A DNA stretch of 20,700 nt. Source: a virus. Location: the IMG/VR virus record IMGVR_UViG_3300035034_002123, positions 1 to 20,700 of that record; one strand, 5' to 3'. The notes below the pieces were generated by a model that searched no databases, was not told the DNA's origin, and worked only from the letters and a program-made list of their open reading frames with translations. The translations under genes were made by a program, and so were the position numbers. Shown one piece after another: positions 3,795-12,138 of the stretch. Each line of letters starts with the position of its first letter. The stretch's first letter is position 1.

Positions 3795-4193
3795 CTACGC
3801 GGCGACGAGCACCGCGACGACCCTCGCGGCAATCCGCAGGCCGTTGGCGACCTGCTTGCGTGTCGCGGAGTCGAAGTCGGCCGCCTGCATGTGCGCGAGG
3901 TATGCGGCCTTACCCATGACGTTGTCACGCTCGGCCTCGACGACCATTGGGAATCCGGGTTCGGCGGAGGCGAGGGCGAGGTGGTCGGCTCGCTCGGCGA
4001 TGTAGTCCGCAAGCTCATCGCGACGGCCGCCGATGCCGTTCGCGAACTGCGTGGCCTCTTCGGTCAGCACCGCGACGAGCTCTCGCCCGGCCGCCTTGAG
4101 GACGTCGCCCTTCTTGAGGGTCGGATCATCGAGCCCGCCGGTCGTTGTCGCCGAGGGTTCGCTGCTGGCGATAGGTTGATCTTGCTCCGACAT
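3795..4193 (-). CDS. Unknown phage protein (132 aa)
   Basis: A 132-residue protein beginning MSEQDQPIASSEPSATTTGG. It has a disordered Ser/Thr-rich N terminus, a charged helical middle (RRDELADYIAERADHLALA) and a short hydrophobic end (AARVVAVLVAA). The C-terminal stretch is too short and interrupted to be a confident membrane helix. The ATG at 4193 overlaps the stop of the upstream lipoprotein gene (TGATG), which indicates translational coupling; a GTG one codon upstream is also possible. It lies in the lysis-like block between the lipoprotein and the protease. No family was recognised. Confidence 0.6.
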   Translation of the reverse strand: MSEQDQPIASSEPSATTTGGLDDPTLKKGDVLKAAGRELVAVLTEEATQFANGIGGRRDELADYIAERADHLALASAEPGFPMVVEAERDNVMGKAAYLAHMQAADFDSATRKQVANGLRIAARVVAVLVAA

Positions 4194-4621
4194 CACAGTC
4201 CTTCCGTTGTTGGAAATGCGACCTGCGTGAACAGGTTCTCAAAGTTGCGGTGCCGCTCACGAAGCGACTCGGCCCCGAGGGGACCGATCTGCCCGTTGGC
4301 GAGGCGAGCCTTGACGCCAAGTTCTGCGACATCCTGCACGATCGGCCAGAGCGGGACGGCGACGGCCTGATACTGAAGGCGATCGCCGCTGCGGACCGCG
4401 GCGAAGAAGTCTTCCATGTTCTCCGCCGTCACCGCCTGCTCATCTTCCTCGACATACTCGAGGCCGAGGGCCGCGTCGGACTCGACGCCGAGCGACAGGC
4501 GATCGAGCGTCGGAACAGTGACGTTCTCTTCCACCTTCTGCGTGGCGCAGGCAGGCAGGGAAACGAGGGTTGCCCCCGTCACGAAAATGGTGAGGGCTAC
4601 GACGGCGGCGCGGGTGTTCAT
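4193..4621 (-). CDS. Phage lipoprotein, unknown role
   Basis: 142 residues from an ATG at 4621 that has AAGGAG with 7-nt spacing. A longer frame open upstream (to 4702) overlaps the preceding gene and is not needed. The N terminus is a lipoprotein signal: one Arg, a hydrophobic core VVALTIFVTGATLVSL, then L-P-A-C with candidate lipidated Cys25. The mature part is acidic and helical and should be anchored to a membrane facing the periplasm. It follows a holin-like gene by 22 nt, so an outer-membrane spanin subunit or superinfection-exclusion lipoprotein are options. The mature part is long for an o-spanin, and no inner-membrane partner is evident. Those roles are inference from position. Confidence 0.7.
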   Translation of the reverse strand: MNTRAAVVALTIFVTGATLVSLPACATQKVEENVTVPTLDRLSLGVESDAALGLEYVEEDEQAVTAENMEDFFAAVRSGDRLQYQAVAVPLWPIVQDVAELGVKARLANGQIGPLGAESLRERHRNFENLFTQVAFPTTEGL

Positions 4622-4643
4622 GGTCAGGCTCCTTGGGGTTGGG

Positions 4644-4991
4644 TTACTCATTCTTGGCATCGAGTAGCCTGAGCGTGGCGTGCGACTCCGCCTCTTTCGC
4701 ATGCTTCATGGCGATGCCGGCTTTCACGATTCGACGACTCTTGATGTAGCCGGCCTCGACGAGTGCGGTTCGGGTGACGGCGACCGCAGTCAGCACCAGG
4801 CCGACGAGCGAGATCGCCCACTCGTGATCCACGTTCACCTTCACGAACTCTAGGGTCATCGGGGAGAGGGTCACGATGACGCCGAGAGCGATTCCCCACA
4901 CGCCCTGACGGCGTGCGTTCTTCATCACTTCGTGCTCGGACGTCTGGCGGCCGGGGCGGGCGAGGGCGGACGACTCTTGGGCGTTGTGCAT
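4644..4991 (-). CDS. Two-helix membrane protein, holin-like
   Basis: 115 residues with two hydrophobic segments, about 31-51 (VWGIALGVIVTLSPMTLEF) and 58-75 (EWAISLVGLVLTAVAVTRT). A polar N terminus precedes them and a Lys/Arg/Glu-rich tail follows. Size, two membrane spans and charged tail fit the general look of class II holins, which make the inner-membrane lesion at lysis, but no specific family was recognised. It is followed by a lipoprotein gene, which supports a lysis or envelope role. The ATG at 4991 has no good Shine-Dalgarno but has GCGTCTACT with 7-nt spacing. An internal Met at residue 23 is an alternative start. It is transcribed divergently from the plus-strand island. Confidence 0.6.
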   Translation of the reverse strand: MHNAQESSALARPGRQTSEHEVMKNARRQGVWGIALGVIVTLSPMTLEFVKVNVDHEWAISLVGLVLTAVAVTRTALVEAGYIKSRRIVKAGIAMKHAKEAESHATLRLLDAKNE

Positions 4992-5028: not shown

Positions 5029-5056
5029 TTGACCCCGAATGCCGTCCCCCTAGACT
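5029..5056 (+). promoter_or_regulatory. Predicted sigma70-type promoter of the plus-strand island
   Basis: TTGACC (5029-5034) and TAGACT (5051-5056) are separated by 16 nt. The -10 element ends only 5 nt before the ATG at 5062, so transcription would start at or very near the start codon and give a leaderless mRNA. No Shine-Dalgarno lies before that ATG, which agrees. The 70-nt gap also serves the divergent holin-like gene. Confidence 0.55.
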
Positions 5057-5061
5057 TCATC

Positions 5062-5271
5062 ATGCGTGAAAAGGTTACTATCGTTGCGGCGTTCGGATCG
5101 CTGCTGATTCTCGGGGGATGTCAGGGTATGGACCGCCTGAACACGGGCAGCAACACACCGCCCCCCACGCGGTACTACACCGTGAGTCCGGTCTACACGA
5201 GTCCCAACGGGGGGTCCACGGTCTATAAGATCACGGACGGATACTCGACCACCTACGGGACAGAACGATGA
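5062..5271 (+). CDS. Small lipoprotein (69 aa)
   Basis: A 69-residue protein with a classic lipoprotein signal: MREK, a hydrophobic core VTIVAAFGSLLIL, then L-G-G-C with candidate lipidated Cys20. The mature part is Pro/Thr/Tyr/Ser-rich (TPPPTRYYTVSPVYTSPNGG), short and probably disordered. ATG 5062 was chosen over the upstream frame start because the signal peptide begins here and a promoter -10 ends 5 nt before it. It is the first gene of a plus-strand cassette that also holds a small DNA-binding candidate and mom. Phage-encoded small lipoproteins often block superinfection or alter the envelope, but the role here is unknown. Confidence 0.65.
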   Translation: MREKVTIVAAFGSLLILGGCQGMDRLNTGSNTPPPTRYYTVSPVYTSPNGGSTVYKITDGYSTTYGTER

Positions 5272-5288
5272 ATACCAGGAAGGGTTGA

Positions 5289-5480
5289 ATGAAACTCAGC
5301 TACGACCAGATCGTATGGCTCCGAGCCATCGAGGATAACTCATACAGGAACATGTGCCTCACCGACCGTATCGGCGACAAGGCCCGACGCGCGCTCAAGC
5401 GTCGATCGCTGGTGAAGTTTGACCGCAAGGCAGGCTGGCGGATCACAACAAAAGGCTGCCGCGTCCTGCGGGAGATCTAA
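5289..5480 (+). CDS. Small winged-helix-like protein upstream of mom
   Basis: 63 residues, MKLSYDQIVWLRAIEDNSYR onward, with a good ribosome-binding site (AGGAAG 6 nt before the ATG). The pattern of helix, then RALKRRSLVKFDRKAGWRIT and TTKGCRVL, resembles a compact winged helix: recognition helix, beta wing ending in T-x-x-G, last helix. It is therefore probably a DNA-binding regulator. It ends one nucleotide before the mom start. In phage Mu the gene before mom is com, a 62-residue zinc-finger translational activator of mom. This protein has a similar size and position but only two cysteines and no zinc-finger pattern, so it is not a Com homologue by sequence. Confidence 0.65.
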   Translation: MKLSYDQIVWLRAIEDNSYRNMCLTDRIGDKARRALKRRSLVKFDRKAGWRITTKGCRVLREI

Positions 5481-5481
5481 G

Positions 5482-6195
5482 ATGCACCATCGCCAGCCGG
5501 TTGGCATGAACTCTCGCGAAGGAAGCATCAGGGCGATGCACTCGGCACACCAGCCGAGGGAGGGCGGTTCGATCCCGACCCCTTCGCTTATTCGTGCCGA
5601 CTGGCGCGTCCAGCCGGTGGAACTCTCCGTCGCGAAAGAGATGGTTCGGCGAGAGCATTACTCGCATGGCGGCAGCAATACCGCCGTCTACACGTTCGGC
5701 ATCGTTCCGGCACGCCAATGGTTCGGGGTTTTACCGATCGCCGTCAATTGGTGGATACCCCCGACGCCAGCATGTGGCAAATCTGTGTGGCCATCCAACT
5801 GCCAATCCGTGCTGTCGCTGTCGCGGCTGGTCTGCGAACCGCACGCCCCGAAAAATGCCCCGTCTTTTTTGTTGGCTCACTCACAACGGCAGATCGACCG
5901 CGCCCGCTGGCCGATCCTCATCACGTTTGCCGACGAGTGGCAGGGACACGCCGGGACGATCTACAAGGCGGCGGGCTGGCTCGAATGCGGCCGAACGAGG
6001 CCGGAACCGACCTACGTGAAGGGCGGGCGAATGGTGTCACGCAAGGCTGGGCCGAAGACCCGAACCCACGATCAAATGCTTGCGCTGGGGTGTGAATGCG
6101 TCGGCTCGTTTCGGCGATTGCGTTTCGTTCATGTTCGTGCGGACCTGCGGGACGAGTTTGAGCCGATCCGGAAACGACTGGCAGAGGGCATATAG
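5482..6195 (+). CDS. mom: Mom-family DNA adenine modification protein
   Basis: 237 residues from ATG 5482, close to the length of phage Mu Mom, which converts adenine to N6-methylcarbamoyl-adenine in phage DNA and protects it from restriction. Segments that resemble the family are VELSVAKEMVRREHYSHGG (about 46-64), LSLSRLVCEPHAPKNAPSFL (about 111-130) and LITFADEWQGHAGTIYKAAG (about 146-165); the last is the most characteristic ('I-T-F-A-D' then 'H-x-G-T-I-Y-x-A'). These belong to an acyltransferase-like fold. The first 35 or so residues do not look like the family and coincide with a tRNA-like structure, so a later start (for example ATG 5537) is possible. The gene is convergent with the head morphogenesis gene, 12 nt apart. 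Confidence 0.8.
   Translation: MHHRQPVGMNSREGSIRAMHSAHQPREGGSIPTPSLIRADWRVQPVELSVAKEMVRREHYSHGGSNTAVYTFGIVPARQWFGVLPIAVNWWIPPTPACGKSVWPSNCQSVLSLSRLVCEPHAPKNAPSFLLAHSQRQIDRARWPILITFADEWQGHAGTIYKAAGWLECGRTRPEPTYVKGGRMVSRKAGPKTRTHDQMLALGCECVGSFRRLRFVHVRADLRDEFEPIRKRLAEGI
5517..5586 (+). other. tRNA-like cloverleaf overlapping 5' part of mom
   Basis: The 70 nt fold as a cloverleaf. The acceptor stem is CGAAGG/CCTTCG (5517-5522 with 5581-5586). The D-arm is GCAT/ATGC (5525-5528 with 5536-5539). The anticodon-like stem is CTCGG/CCGAG (5541-5545 with 5554-5558). The T-arm contains GGTTCGATCCC (5566-5576), nearly the tRNA B-box consensus, with four of five stem pairs. The anticodon-like loop is CACACCAG, eight nt or six if the stem extends, with no U33. 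No CCA end is encoded. It is therefore not a standard tRNA: it may be a degenerate tRNA, a tRNA-like regulatory element, or coincidence within coding sequence. Confidence 0.4.
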
Positions 6196-6207: not shown

Positions 6208-7365
6208 CTACGGCTGATACAGCAGCAGCGTTTGATCGTCGAACGCATACCGCTCGCCATTGAGAACGACGACTTCATTCTCGACGTCCTCAACGAGGCC
6301 ATGGATGAATATGTCGTACTGCTCGAGCGCCCGCCCCACCACCGCGAGCGACCCGATCAGCATCGACGGCTCATCGCCGGGCAGCCACGACTTCCAGCCA
6401 AGATCCTTCGCCCGGGCCACAGGGTCCAGGATCGCGCGGCGCGACGGCAGCGTGATGTTGATTCCGTCGCGATGGGCCTGCCCGAGCATCCGATCGCGAG
6501 CCATGATCGCCGCCGTCGCGTATGTCCCGCCCCGGAACTGCGAGAGCCGCCGATTGCGAACCATCGTCGCCACCTCAAGATCGAACTGGCGGGCCAGCGA
6601 AAGCCCCTCCGGCCCGAACGGGTCGATCTTCCTCGCCCCGACAGCGGTCACTTCCGCAGCCATTCGGGGTTCAGCGTTCGCCGCCCCGTCTCCGAGAACG
6701 ATCAGTCGGCACCTGCACCGCGACAGGCACGGCGTATCGCCCGCGCGGGGCGCAGTCCTCAACTCACTGGGCTTCCCGGATCCCGGCGGCGAGTACGGAC
6801 TGTTCGCGGCGAGCGTGATGCACCCGGCGCAGTGCTCCGCGACGCCGAGCCGCCATTCGATCTGTGCGTCATCGGGTTGCACGTTCAGGAACCCGTGATA
6901 CATCGCAAGCCGGGTCAGCCCTGAGTACATGCCGATGCGCACATCCAACTGCCTCGGCGTCAGCGACGCTGCGAGCATCCGCCGGAAGTAGCCGATCTCT
7001 TCCTCGACGATGCGCACGACCGACGCCGCCTGCGCCGCCTGCACCTTCATGCCCGCATACCCGGCGAGCGCGACCCCGCGGGCGAACGACTTTGTCGCCG
7101 CGCTGTTCATCAGCTTCCGCGAACCGGCCAGCGCGTCACCGAGGCTCATCTTCCCGGCCTGATGCTGCTGGTAGATCGACCGGAGCGCCCGCTGTAGATC
7201 GTCCCCGAGCCGTTCCACCTGCGACAGGCTCGCCGCCCGCTGGCGGTTGGTGAGCGGCTGCGGCCTCCCGGGCTGCGGGAATCGCCTGCGGCTCGGCCGC
7301 TTCGTCTCAAGCGCCAGGTCGATAAAGCGAAGGAGCGAACTCATTGATGAGGCTGGAGTCGGCAT
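6208..7365 (-). CDS. Head morphogenesis protein, SPP1 gp7/Mu F-like
   Basis: 385 residues. The central region has the layout of the phage Mu F/SPP1 gp7 minor head protein domain: a helical stretch (LDVRIGMYSGLTRLAMYHGF), then E-W-R-L-G-V-A-E-H-C-x-x-C with Cys179 and Cys182, a loop, and T-P-C-L-S-R-C-R-C-R-L with Cys213, Cys217 and Cys219. This cysteine pattern ('W...C..C ... C.C.C.L') is the hallmark of the family and probably binds a metal. These proteins sit at the portal vertex and take part in DNA ejection or head assembly. The start ATG at 7365 has GAGGGG 7 nt upstream and lies within the 3' end of the portal gene (59 nt overlap). The gene order portal then gp7-like is usual. Confidence 0.72.
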   Translation of the reverse strand: MPTPASSMSSLLRFIDLALETKRPSRRRFPQPGRPQPLTNRQRAASLSQVERLGDDLQRALRSIYQQHQAGKMSLGDALAGSRKLMNSAATKSFARGVALAGYAGMKVQAAQAASVVRIVEEEIGYFRRMLAASLTPRQLDVRIGMYSGLTRLAMYHGFLNVQPDDAQIEWRLGVAEHCAGCITLAANSPYSPPGSGKPSELRTAPRAGDTPCLSRCRCRLIVLGDGAANAEPRMAAEVTAVGARKIDPFGPEGLSLARQFDLEVATMVRNRRLSQFRGGTYATAAIMARDRMLGQAHRDGINITLPSRRAILDPVARAKDLGWKSWLPGDEPSMLIGSLAVVGRALEQYDIFIHGLVEDVENEVVVLNGERYAFDDQTLLLYQP

Positions 7366-8935
7366 ACCGCATCCCCTCTACATCCCCGCCGACCGCGAGG
7401 ATCTCTTTGAAGGACTCGATGAGCTCTTCGGCGAGCAGTGGGTCGGTCTGCCCGAGCTTCGTGATCGCCGACTCGACACTCTCGCTGTCGGGCTTGCCCC
7501 GGCTCTCGCTGTCCTCGCCGGGCGTGACCTGCGTGAAGAGCCTGTTCATTTCCTCGTCGCTGAGGTCGCGGAGTTCGTCGTCCATGCGAAGGAGATGGCG
7601 GAGTACCCATCGTGGGTTCGCACGGAAGTCCATCCCCGCCTCCGCCATCGCCTTCAACGCCTGAGCCGTGAGCAGCTTGATCTGGGCCTGGAGCATGTCG
7701 TCACGGGCGCCGATCTCCGGCACGCCGACGGAGACCTGATCCCGAATCACATCCGGGCTGATCCCGGCCCGCAGCATATGCACGATCGCTAAGTGGTAAA
7801 AACCGGGCACCATGTAGTTCTGCACCCCGCGGCAAACCCGAGCAAACGCCACATCGATCTGCATGAGACTCGATCGCCCACCGCCGTCACGGGATCGCCC
7901 GAGGTAATCACTCGGCACGCCCAGCGCGCCGAAATACGCCTGCGAAAACATCTTCAAGTCCTCGACCGTGCCGAGGTTGTTATCGCCCTCCATCACCTTG
8001 ACGCCGTAGCTCAGCCCCTCGCCGGCGGGCACAAACAAGTCCTCGTCGGGCACCATCGGCCGGCGGAACGAGTCGGTGTTGTCGCCGACGAGCGAGTCGC
8101 GGCGGTAATGCTCCATCCACTCACGGACGCGGGCCTTGATGGCGACGGGGTCATCTTTGATGTCGGAGCAATCGATATCCCACGCGTACCGCTGGGCCGC
8201 CCTCGACAGGCGGGCGATGACGGCCGAGTCCATCATGCCGAGCATCTGGAGTCCGATCGGCGCGAACGGCCGCAGGATCGATTGACCGTAGAGAATCGTC
8301 TTCGTCGCCGTCGTCCGGCGGGTCATCAGCGAGAAGTGCGGCAAGACCCACTTCGGGATCTTGGTGGCCTGCGACTTCATGCCGCGGTAGTCGAAGTCGT
8401 CATCCTCGACGTCCTGCTGGATCCAATACTCGTCGTTCGATGATGCCTGGAGGTTGCGGTAGATGGTTGCGGGCGGGATCGGCTTGAGCCGCGTGACGCC
8501 GGCTTCACCCAACACGATCTGCGGCATGATCGAACCGTACTTGCATGTTTCGCGCACGACCCACATCGCTTCGGACGCCATGATCCGCGTGACGTCGTCC
8601 GCCGCTTTCTGAAGTGCGGCGGGGGCGTTGTTCTCGTCTTCGAGCTTCACGCGGAAGCTATCCTTGCCTGAGCCGGTCAGCGTGCCGGTGCAGCAAGTCG
8701 TCGAGATCGCCATCAGAGCTCCGGAAACGTCGGAAATGTCGTCTTCGAGCGTGTCGTAGAACTTCATCTCATCGACGCGCTTGCCGGGAATGATGTGCGT
8801 CTGGCCGCGCCTCTGGCCCTGCGAGGCGCGGCTGATCGGGTCATCGCCCTTGGGCGAGACGTGCCCGGACGGTCCGGGGTCGGATGTCAGCATGCTTCCG
8901 ACGAAGTTTGAGATCTTGGCAAGGGCGCGTGTCAT
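7307..8935 (-). CDS. Portal protein, T4 gp20-like
   Basis: 542 residues, within the usual size of T4-type portals (about 520). These form the dodecameric ring at the unique head vertex through which DNA is packaged and ejected. Matching segments include YGQSILRPFAPIGLQ (216-230), then VIARLSRAAQRYAWDID (239-255), corresponding to the gp20 pattern 'Y-R-[IL]-[ST]-R-A-P-E-R-R-V-F-Y-I-D'. Further on, GDNNLGTVEDLKMFSQAYFGALGVPSDYL (317-345) corresponds to 'G-x-N-L-G-x-[IV]-E-D-[VL]-x-[YF]-F-x-K-L-[YF]-x-A-L-x-V-P'. The ATG at 8935 lies 17 nt after the terminase stop and is preceded by GCGTCTAGT at 11-nt spacing. The 3' end overlaps the next gene by 59 nt. Confidence 0.82.
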   Translation of the reverse strand: MTRALAKISNFVGSMLTSDPGPSGHVSPKGDDPISRASQGQRRGQTHIIPGKRVDEMKFYDTLEDDISDVSGALMAISTTCCTGTLTGSGKDSFRVKLEDENNAPAALQKAADDVTRIMASEAMWVVRETCKYGSIMPQIVLGEAGVTRLKPIPPATIYRNLQASSNDEYWIQQDVEDDDFDYRGMKSQATKIPKWVLPHFSLMTRRTTATKTILYGQSILRPFAPIGLQMLGMMDSAVIARLSRAAQRYAWDIDCSDIKDDPVAIKARVREWMEHYRRDSLVGDNTDSFRRPMVPDEDLFVPAGEGLSYGVKVMEGDNNLGTVEDLKMFSQAYFGALGVPSDYLGRSRDGGGRSSLMQIDVAFARVCRGVQNYMVPGFYHLAIVHMLRAGISPDVIRDQVSVGVPEIGARDDMLQAQIKLLTAQALKAMAEAGMDFRANPRWVLRHLLRMDDELRDLSDEEMNRLFTQVTPGEDSESRGKPDSESVESAITKLGQTDPLLAEELIESFKEILAVGGDVEGMRYADSSLINEFAPSLYRPGA

Positions 8936-8944
8936 TGGCTTCTC

Positions 8945-8953
8945 ACTAGACGC
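8945..8953 (-). promoter_or_regulatory. Start-associated motif GCGTCTAGT (portal)
   Basis: The minus strand reads TAGCGTCTAGTGAGA, beginning with the TAG stop of the terminase gene. The GCGTCTA core ends 11 nt before the portal ATG at 8935. It is the only one of the five with longer spacing; a weak GAGAAG follows it. Confidence 0.55.
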
Positions 8954-10746
8954 TATCCGACGGCGACGATCGGCTTATGTGTCCGCCGCCCAGTTGTAGA
9001 CCCCCTCGCCGGGTTGCGCTCGATGCGAATGTCGCTCTTGTCCTGATTGAACATCATCTCGTAGACATCGGCGGCGATGAGGTCGTACGTGGCGGCATGA
9101 AGCTGGTGATCCGGGCCATCTTCCTCCCAGCGGTACCTTGCCTCGCCAGCCCCGCCCGGCGTGTACAGCACGCGGGCGCTCGACATCATCTCGTCGCGAA
9201 GTCGGCCGTTGATCGCGTGCTGCCACGCCCGGAACATCACGACGTCATTCCGCACGAAGCTCGTGTAAAGTTTGTCGATCGAGATGGTGCGGTCGGCCTT
9301 GACCATCTTGGGCTTGTCGCCCGGATGCTCGCCCTTGAGCACTGGCGACCACCACTCATCCATCGGTGCGGTCGAGTATTTCACCATCACGCAGCGGATC
9401 CCAGCCTCCCCGAGCTTCCGCTGGATCTCCATCGACGTGTGCTTCGACGGCTGCGAGTCGATCGCCGCCACCCGGACGCCGAGTTGTCTCAGCTTCGTCA
9501 CCAGGTCCGCGTTTGTCACCTTGCCGACGAAAATCTTGTGCTGCTTGCGGGTCGGGTCGGGGTAGGTCGAGACATGGACGTCGAAATACGGCTCATTGAC
9601 GTCGATGCCCGCGGTGCAGGGGCCGGGGTGCTGCTCGAACATCTTGTACGACGGGTCGACGCAGCCCTCGATCATGGCCTCGGTGAACCTCGCGACGCCT
9701 GCCGTGAACGGGCGCCCGAGCGACAGGTTCATGAAGTTCTGGTAGCCGGTCGGGTCATCGACGTTCTTGCGGAATCGGTCTACGAGCGAAGTGATGCCCG
9801 GACCCATCTTGAGCGCCAGGGGTTCAACCCAATAACTCCGGAGTTTCGATCGCTTATTCTGCTGCTCCCATTCGCCTTCCGCGAGGCGATCGAATGGCTT
9901 GTGGCACTCGATGCAGATCGGCCTCGGTTCCGGCGATTCGGCCTCCCACCTGTGATCGCGGACCTCAAAATCGAGGACTCGCCCCGAGTGATCCATGTCG
10001 GCGTTGATGAAGTTTTCGAACCAGTCGAGAATCTGCGGATGGCCGCACTGGTCGCACTTCGTGAACCACCGCCACTGGTCGCCGCGGAGAAACAGGGCGT
10101 GGATGTTGTCGCCAGAGACGCTGCCGTCCTGTCGGATGGATGCCTGGAACGTCGGCGTCGAGATCGTGTCTTCGAACGCGAACTCCGACGCGTTCATGCG
10201 GTCGGGGTACATCGACAGGTTGCCTTGATCGTGGAAGTCCTTTTCGTCGATGTGCATACAGTCGGCCGAGAACGATGTCAGATCGTCGATCGACCGCGAC
10301 GTCTTGATGAAGAGCTTGCCATACTCGCCCCATGTCATGTAGGTGTGCGAGTCGAATTGGCGGACCCGGCTGCGGTAGTACGGCGTGGCCTCGATCGTCG
10401 GAACGATTTTGCCCTTTGCAAGCTCCGAAATCTTCGAATGCTTCGTGAGCACCCACCCGACCGCGAGGCCGAGATCCATCTGAGCAAACGACTTCACGAG
10501 TTCGAGAAGGGTCTTCCCTCGCTGGGCGGCCGAAATTACGGTCAGGTTTGGCGAGGCGTCGGCGTAGATTCGCCTCCACTGAGGCTCGAGACGTATCGGT
10601 CGCCCGGCCTCCGTGCGATGGTGATGCTCGGCCAGGTACAACGTGTGCTTCGCGATGGAGTGCGCCATGCCCATCCGACGGATGGCGCTCTCGGTCATCT
10701 GCACTTTCTTGCCGGCCATCTCGACGGTGTAGACCGACTCAGCCAT
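8953..10746 (-). CDS. Terminase large subunit, lambda GpA type
   Basis: 597 residues. This is the packaging ATPase-nuclease that cuts concatemeric DNA and drives it through the portal. The ATPase half has a Walker A-like S-A-A-Q-R-G-K-T (72-79), as in the atypical loop of GpA-type terminases, and a Walker B-like ADCMHIDEKDF (161-171). A zinc-binding insertion uses Cys231/Cys234 and Cys278/Cys281 (CDQCGHPQ and CIECHKPF), again a GpA-family trait. The nuclease half begins at GIDVNEPYFDVHVSTYPDP. The start overlaps the previous gene by 8 nt and has AAGGTGG about 6 nt upstream. The stop TAG abuts the portal start-associated element. A long open frame on the opposite strand is only a shadow. Confidence 0.9.
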   Translation of the reverse strand: MAESVYTVEMAGKKVQMTESAIRRMGMAHSIAKHTLYLAEHHHRTEAGRPIRLEPQWRRIYADASPNLTVISAAQRGKTLLELVKSFAQMDLGLAVGWVLTKHSKISELAKGKIVPTIEATPYYRSRVRQFDSHTYMTWGEYGKLFIKTSRSIDDLTSFSADCMHIDEKDFHDQGNLSMYPDRMNASEFAFEDTISTPTFQASIRQDGSVSGDNIHALFLRGDQWRWFTKCDQCGHPQILDWFENFINADMDHSGRVLDFEVRDHRWEAESPEPRPICIECHKPFDRLAEGEWEQQNKRSKLRSYWVEPLALKMGPGITSLVDRFRKNVDDPTGYQNFMNLSLGRPFTAGVARFTEAMIEGCVDPSYKMFEQHPGPCTAGIDVNEPYFDVHVSTYPDPTRKQHKIFVGKVTNADLVTKLRQLGVRVAAIDSQPSKHTSMEIQRKLGEAGIRCVMVKYSTAPMDEWWSPVLKGEHPGDKPKMVKADRTISIDKLYTSFVRNDVVMFRAWQHAINGRLRDEMMSSARVLYTPGGAGEARYRWEEDGPDHQLHAATYDLIAADVYEMMFNQDKSDIRIERNPARGSTTGRRTHKPIVAVG

Positions 10747-11358: not shown

Positions 11359-12138
11359 TCAACTAGACGCCGCCTTGGCGGGCGGCTCGCCTTCCGGCTG
11401 GTTTTCTTCCGGATCAGGGTCGATCGACTCGTAGAAACCTTCGGACTCGTTGGCGTCAGCAGCCTCGGCCTCGGCCTGCGCCTGGATAAGCCACGCCTCG
11501 CAGATCAGCGCGATCGCCGCGCCCGGCACATGCTCGCTGAGTCCGGAGACCCGCCCATCGGCCTTCGCGAGCTTGATCGCCCGCGTGACGACCTGCTTCT
11601 GCTCGGACGTCAGGAAGAACACTTCCGGCGACGACTTTCGCCCCATCTGCTTCTTGCGCGACTTGAGATCGTCGACCACTGCGGTCGACCTGGCCTTCGC
11701 GAGCTTGTGAAGCTCATCCTGGGTCTCGGGCACGACGGAAGATAGCGCCTCGGCGTCCGTCTCTCTGAGAAGATCGGCAAGCAGATCGCGACGCATCTTC
11801 TTCGACTCCTTGCCGCGGAGCGAGTTCATTGTCAGAAGCATTTGCTTGGCCCGGGAGTCGGTGACGCCAGCAACGACGTAGGCGGGCACTTCTTCTCGGC
11901 CGAGATCCTTCGCGACAGCCCATCGGTGATGCCCATCGAGGATCTGGAGGCTCCCGGCCTCGTGCTCTTTCTGAAACTCCTCAGAGGCTTCGAGCGACCG
12001 GACGAACAGCGGCGGAATCTCGCCGGATGCGCGGATGTTCAGCTTCAGCTTCTCGTACAACTCGTCGCTCATCTTGTTCGGATTGCGCGGGTGCGCGATC
12101 AGCGACGAAACATCAACCGTCCGCATTTTCTCAGCCAT
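11359..12138 (-). CDS. ParB N-terminal domain protein
   Basis: 259 residues. The N-terminal 90 residues have the ParB/Srx fold signature: SSLIAHPRNPNKM (11-23), then LQILDGHHRWAVAKDLG (64-80), with GHHR at 69-72 in place of the 'G-E-R-R' nucleotide-binding box. The remainder is helical and ends in an acidic, Pro-rich tail. ParB-domain proteins bind CTP or cleave DNA depending on the subfamily. Phages often carry one next to the terminase genes, where a role in packaging-site recognition or regulation is suspected but not established. GAAGGG sits 6 nt before ATG 12138. The start overlaps the previous gene by 8 nt; the stop TGA lies a few bases before the small terminase start. Confidence 0.78.
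   Translation of the reverse strand: MAEKMRTVDVSSLIAHPRNPNKMSDELYEKLKLNIRASGEIPPLFVRSLEASEEFQKEHEAGSLQILDGHHRWAVAKDLGREEVPAYVVAGVTDSRAKQMLLTMNSLRGKESKKMRRDLLADLLRETDAEALSSVVPETQDELHKLAKARSTAVVDDLKSRKKQMGRKSSPEVFFLTSEQKQVVTRAIKLAKADGRVSGLSEHVPGAAIALICEAWLIQAQAEAEAADANESEGFYESIDPDPEENQPEGEPPAKAASS
11362..11370 (-). promoter_or_regulatory. Start-associated motif GCGTCTAGT (small terminase)
   Basis: The minus strand reads GCGTCTAGTTGAGC then ATG (11356), with 7 nt between the GCGTCTA core and ATG. It also encodes the last Ala-Ser-Ser of the ParB-like gene, so the element is maintained inside coding sequence. Confidence 0.58.

Follow-up and report, generated by a model that had tools for sequence, protein, structure and literature searches.

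A tRNA-Gly-like element within or beside many phage mom genes, a candidate glycine carrier for the DNA modification enzyme Mom

The window analysed here is the whole of a 20.7-kb IMG/VR virus record, IMGVR_UViG_3300035034_002123. The ORF listing revealed three plus-strand open reading frames at 5029-6195 (5029/5062-5271, 5289-5480 and 5482-6195), which are opposed to minus-strand neighbors on both sides; the three-gene plus-strand island within a minus-strand head module, as described in the initial annotation, is indeed present. The minus-strand genes on one side of the island are 6208-7365, portal and TerL, and those on the other are 4644-4991, 4193-4702, the protease and the major capsid gene. 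The features at the locus are as follows.

4644..4991, minus strand: small membrane protein gene flanking the island, with weak matches only
5062..5271, plus strand: putative small lipoprotein gene, 69 residues from ATG 5062, with a signal peptide and a lipobox-like LLILGGC
5289..5480, plus strand: gene of a 63-residue winged-helix-like protein, PHROG 7665 (function unknown), E=4.3e-6
5482..6195, plus strand: mom, Mom-family (GNAT-fold) DNA adenine modification enzyme, 237 residues from ATG 5482
5516..5588, plus strand: tRNA-Gly-like element, in frame in the 5' part of mom, from covariance model and minimum free energy (MFE) fold
6208..7365, minus strand: minor head protein by position only, 385 residues, the flanking gene after portal

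The ORF of the putative lipoprotein (5062-5271) has an alternative start at TTG 5029, and family database searches gave no family match for its product or for the 385-residue protein at 6208-7365. The promoter-like sequence ascribed to the island is weak: one 9/12 site lies at 5029-5056, with 0.4 expected by chance, and it overlies the proposed TTG start. The GC content of the cassette is 0.605, compared to 0.626 for the remainder of the window. For the suggested origin of the island as a moron gained by transfer, relatives were sought for comparison: peptide-pattern searches of IMG/VR found none for the 385-residue head protein, portal or TerL (6208-10746), and a search of GTDB genomes found none for TerL. 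Judged from these sequences, the phage is very divergent, with no relative found for the three proteins. Elsewhere in the window, an N6/N4 DNA methyltransferase gene (15781-16716, minus strand, Pfam 4.4e-17) represents a second DNA modification gene, and a ParB-like gene is located at 11359-12138, beside the terminase genes.

The stop codon of the 63-residue gene directly precedes the mom ATG at 5482. Com, the translational activator of mom in phage Mu, is likewise encoded by a small gene directly upstream of mom, but it is an RNA-binding protein with a CCCC zinc finger (PMC6483171), compared to the winged-helix-like PHROG 7665 protein of the window. The latter has two Cys only and no N-terminal CCCC zinc finger, in agreement with the earlier view that it is not Com, and a Com homologue was accordingly rejected. 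A role as a conserved mom partner is unsupported as well, since the protein was not found beside other mom genes: no relatives were found in viral contigs, and PHROG 7665 occurs in 0 of 32 other Mom-bearing virus records. In Microbacterium phage BarnCat (L038 3750-3986), an annotated helix-turn-helix gene overlaps the mom start, a possible parallel to the 63-residue gene.

A profile search places the product of 5482-6195 in the Mom family, as the initial annotation had proposed, with a match to Pfam PF25680 at E=2.6e-25 (89.7 bits against a cut-off of 27.1). The product also matches PHROG 1384, 'Mom-like DNA modification protein' (E=1.2e-23), and the family profile matches the crystal structure of Mu Mom (PDB 8bv8, 'Methylcarbamoylase mom') at 4.5e-53. 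The structure prediction suggested earlier gave the same answer: the AlphaFold model (mean pLDDT 71.7) adopts a GNAT fold, with 8bv8 as its best PDB match (E 1.8e-9). In the alignment, Mu Ser124, which is replaced in the inactive S124A mutant of 8bv8, corresponds to Ser128 of the window protein (codon 5863-5865), and this position is Ser or Thr in 32 of 32 aligned sequences. The window protein and Mu Mom (PF25680) therefore share the enzyme family, the GNAT fold and the Ser124 equivalent. The likeness to the XF1762 family (NF045478) is weak (E 5.9e-4, below cut-off), and this family is a protein model only, silent on any RNA element. Altogether, mom of the window encodes a GNAT enzyme of the Mom family, whose predicted product in phage DNA is N6-carbamoylmethyl-adenine. 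An SD-like GGGAG lies upstream of ATG 5482; ATG 5506 is an alternative start, 10 nt ahead of the tRNA-like element, as in many relatives.

The first clue to this element was an odd N-terminal peptide, 'ADSVRV..PLFQ..GGSIPTSALQL', common to Mom proteins from viral contigs in the alignment. Exactly at this peptide, ARAGORN reported tRNA-like genes in many mom loci, several of them called tRNA-Gly. The reading of 'GGSIPTSAL' as a protein domain was rejected because the codons are frozen and the segment is of low confidence in the AlphaFold model. The earlier reading of the island was right about the Mom family and overlooked the tRNA-Gly-like RNA at 5516-5588.

The element has the sequence GCGAAGG-AA-GCATC-AGGGC-GATGC-A-CTCGGC-ACACCA-GCCGAG-GGAG-GGCGG-TTCGATC-CCG(A)CC-CCTTCGC-T, and its MFE fold is a four-arm cloverleaf with a z of -3.0. 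The acceptor stem (5516-5522/5581-5587) has seven of seven pairs, followed by a D-arm with GGG (5525-5539), an anticodon arm (5541-5558) with ACC at 5549-5551, corresponding to positions 34-36, and a T-arm (5563-5580) whose loop, TTCGATC, is canonical and whose stem has a bulged A at 5578; the discriminator is U73 at 5588. The bacterial tRNA-Gly determinants U73, G1-C72, C2-G71, G3-C70, C35 and C36 (PMC9976931, Table 1) are all present in the window copy. Unlike a decoding tRNA, it has a bulged T-stem and an anticodon loop of 8 nt, or of 6 nt if one more pair forms, instead of 7 nt, and it carries no encoded CCA. The covariance model R1, built from 34 relatives with the window copy left out, scores this copy at 64.7 bits (E=1.5e-14), compared to 17 bits for the next-best site in the window. 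ARAGORN reported no tRNA in the window, and the Rfam matches over 5516-5588, PrrB_RsmZ (E 0.0077) and tRNA-Sec (E 0.99), are below gathering scores and were discarded as misreadings of the element. The claim made below rests on the family, since the single copy of the window is insufficient to carry it.

In 68 distinct sequences, the 5' end of mom carries the element in frame, with its first base 4-60 nt after the likely start codon. Of the 98 sources searched with R1, 79, counting the window, gave a coding-strand match at the 5' end of mom; apart from these, a single match fell below E=0.1, the tRNA-Gly beside mom in Microbacterium phage Appa. In the alignment of this 5' family, 95.5% of the pair cells are paired and 13 of 21 pairs show double changes; there are 100 double-change cells, compared to 24.8 in shuffles, and slid controls collapse. 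GCG/CGC makes up the first three pairs in 67 of the 68 copies, and an encoded CCA directly follows the element in 50. An NCC anticodon was recovered by automatic match in 67 copies, and by eye L028 has TCC. At position 73, U occurs in 59 copies and A in nine, never C or G. The same bases are read as protein: the element is 73 or 76 nt long in 75 of 76 copies, in a single frame throughout, the exception being L006 with 74 nt and a stop. The same-codon probability at four-fold codons is 0.69 inside the element compared to 0.27 downstream, and the freezing is significant at p=7e-11 (codons of degeneracy 4 or more). The frozen synonymous positions together with the kept reading frame indicate maintenance of the RNA as well as of the open frame.

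U73 and A73 are the discriminator bases of the two GlyRS types, with A73 belonging to the alpha2-type (PMC3990555). The nine distinct A73 copies (L080, L082, L087, L099, L103, L105, L113, L117 and L124) all have an encoded CCA. Judging from the sequences, A73 versus U73 may be an indicator of the host GlyRS type, A73 being tied to the alpha2-type enzyme.

A second arrangement was found in Mu-type mom genes, where the element sits at the opposite end: 77 of the best 80 Mu-type mom loci, ranked by similarity to an element-containing query, carry it at the 3' end. Among 54 distinct copies of this 3' family, 51 are wholly within the mom frame and three just downstream. U73 is present in all 54 and an encoded CCA in 42, and the TTCRA T-loop is kept in 12, with the D-arm absent in some copies. 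The bases invariant in 46 aligned copies (G1, C2, G10, C28, C35, C36, G42, A44, G52, C60, A63, G71, C72 and U73) contain the core glycine set, in addition to G10, a determinant in T. thermophilus. Covariation is stronger than in the 5' family, with 97.6% of pair cells paired, double changes in 16 of 21 pairs, and 219 double-change cells against 58.1 in shuffles. Sampled proteins of both the 5' and the 3' types are Mom by Pfam.

The linkage was also seen in a mom-blind DNA scan of IMG/VR, in which the 3' half of the element served as the query; 88 stretches matched, and 80 loci were listed. Mom lies directly downstream in 73 of these 80 listed loci and directly upstream in four (L155, L187, L188 and L199); in L183 the element is at a contig end, yet on the same contig as the mom locus L109, and L168 is cut by the contig end. 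The element is thus beside mom in 78 of the 80 listed loci. L191 (8059-8138, minus strand) is the sole listed match that has no Mom nearby and is not cut by a contig end. Here the 3' half of the element falls close to the end of another ORF, upstream of which is a ParB-like gene; a Mom has perhaps been replaced by another gene. Taken together, the element is a tRNA-Gly-like cloverleaf under RNA-level selection, linked to mom at either end of the gene, and its opposite positions argue for a trans-acting RNA.

Two features of gene content were observed among these loci. A ParB-like gene directly precedes the Mu-type mom in L155 (4520-5107), L187, L188, L037 (3472-4005) and L305 (882-1493). Two Mom paralogues occur within a few kb in L002 (2177-2758 and 4445-5092), L010 (5962-6573 and 8653-9357) and L028 (1450-2061 and 4380-4856); in L002, the first Mom has the embedded element and the second, of Mu type, is without it.

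The cultured Psychrobacter phage Y8A carries, between mom and terS, two copies of the element in tandem, both without a D-arm; its published description reports no tRNA genes (PMC10434257). The same source lists a further Mom, ORF69, besides the mom located in this analysis. In Appa, the tRNA-Gly adjoining mom has the anticodon ccc. Of 20 mom regions examined from cultured phages, 18, including those of Mu and ICP1, lack the element nearby; it is therefore not obligatory. The mom gene of Mu is accompanied by Com and lacks a nearby tRNA-like element, whereas the mom of the window contains a tRNA-Gly-like RNA. A DNA similarity search found no cultured phage with the 5' element, and a match in a Shinella plasmid record was set aside as an ordinary tRNA-Gly with no Mom nearby. 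No earlier account of a tRNA-Gly with mom was found in the open-access literature that was covered.

Mom has been under study since the 1970s, and in the literature we found the donors put forward for it, as proposals, are acyl-CoA compounds. One published proposal is acetyl-CoA with iron chemistry. Another is glycyl-CoA, suggested as the acyl-CoA donor (PMC7824862). Mom yields alpha-N-(purin-6-yl)glycinamide (Swinton et al. 1983). Since this compound is adenine carrying a glycinamide group, a glycine-specific RNA at mom is best explained by Mom taking its glycine from Gly-tRNA. We propose that mom is probably a composite, in which the enzyme gene and the gene of a tRNA-Gly-like carrier RNA share the same bases, and that Mom draws on the Gly-tRNA. 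For the family at large, it seems rather likely that Mom enzymes are aminoacyl-tRNA-dependent DNA modifiers, and that many phages encode a translation-incompetent glycine carrier within the mom frame.

According to this proposal, the element would be trimmed from the transcript, and the cut that frees it would destroy that copy of the mRNA. After addition of CCA, the freed element would be glycylated by the host GlyRS, and Mom would then use the Gly-tRNA-like RNA as the activated glycine donor for adenine in phage DNA; charging of the element and transfer by Mom are steps that we infer. On chemical grounds, the resulting N6-glycyl-adenine could rearrange intramolecularly, the glycine amine attacking C6, to yield N6-carbamoylmethyl-adenine, the known Mom product, which protects DNA from restriction. 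A dedicated carrier would spare the translational Gly-tRNA of the cell, and the loss of canonical D- and T-loop features would keep it off EF-Tu and the ribosome. Retained GlyRS determinants and CCA combined with decayed T- and D-loop features make up the pattern that would be expected of a chargeable, non-decoding tRNA. Mom phages without the element would need host Gly-tRNA or another donor.

Two known systems provide partial precedents. The non-proteinogenic tRNA-Gly species of S. aureus that serve peptidoglycan synthesis are chargeable, have lost T-arm features and so escape EF-Tu, and supply a non-ribosomal transferase (PMC9976931). The phage element differs in lying in frame inside the gene of its presumed user enzyme, and its acceptor would be DNA. 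The toxin TacT shares the GNAT fold with Mom and recognizes Gly-tRNA-Gly via U73 and G71, but it acetylates the glycine (PMC9976931), whereas Mom would transfer it. Several points weigh against the carrier reading: excision destroys the mRNA; Mu, ICP1 and the rest of the 18 element-free cultured-phage regions manage without it; the window copy has no encoded CCA and an anticodon loop of unusual size; and the best-80 sample of the 3' family was ranked by likeness to a query that itself contains the element.

The main rival is a cis-regulatory tRNA mimic at the mom start codon that is bound by Mom, GlyRS or another tRNA-binding protein and restrains translation, modelled on the tRNA-like operator of thrS and on the inhibitory structure opened by Com in Mu. 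The 5' element is close enough to the likely start codon to block initiation, and in Mu, an excess of Mom is toxic and its production is under tight control (PMC4461284). A mimic in the mRNA leader or start region, as in thrS, is however true of the 5' family and not of the 3' family, whose copies at the end of mom or just downstream cannot block initiation, and the tandem copies after mom in Y8A are equally at odds with it. Moreover, folding as such would not call for an encoded CCA, U73 or the full glycine set. This mimic, which fits the 5' copies and not the 3' and tandem ones, is in our view unlikely as the general explanation.

It is more doubtful still that the locus is an ordinary Mom cassette with an acyl-CoA donor, the 63-residue winged-helix protein as its control and the RNA as a side feature. 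The strong Pfam and PHROG matches to Mom agree with such a cassette, as does the absence of the element from Mu and many cultured phages, but a glycine-specific RNA linked to mom in two arrangements would stay unexplained and the 63-residue gene was not found beside other mom genes. Many phages carry tRNAs, and some copies score as tRNA-Gly by ARAGORN or as tRNA by Rfam; an ordinary tRNA-Gly for translation that overlaps mom through genome compaction is nevertheless very improbable, given the rarity of the TTCRA T-loop in the 3' copies, the loss of the D-arm in some, the bulged A of the T-stem and the adjacency of nearly all listed mom-blind scan copies to mom. Integrases often use tRNA genes, so that a copy of a host tRNA-Gly could be an attachment-site remnant picked up by integration. 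We rejected this origin and give it almost no credence, because the whole cloverleaf, including its 5' half and the shared A63 bulge, is conserved and covarying, and because the element is consistently fused to or beside mom.

The carrier reading bears on the question of the Mom donor. A glycine-specific tRNA-like RNA joined to mom points to a Gly-tRNA donor, which is directly testable with purified parts and Y8A. If true, this would be the first DNA base modification known to us that depends on an aminoacyl-tRNA, and it would clearly illustrate how a single stretch of DNA can encode both an enzyme and the carrier of its substrate. It also implies that the mom genes of environmental phages hide RNA genes that are mostly missed by standard tRNA finders.
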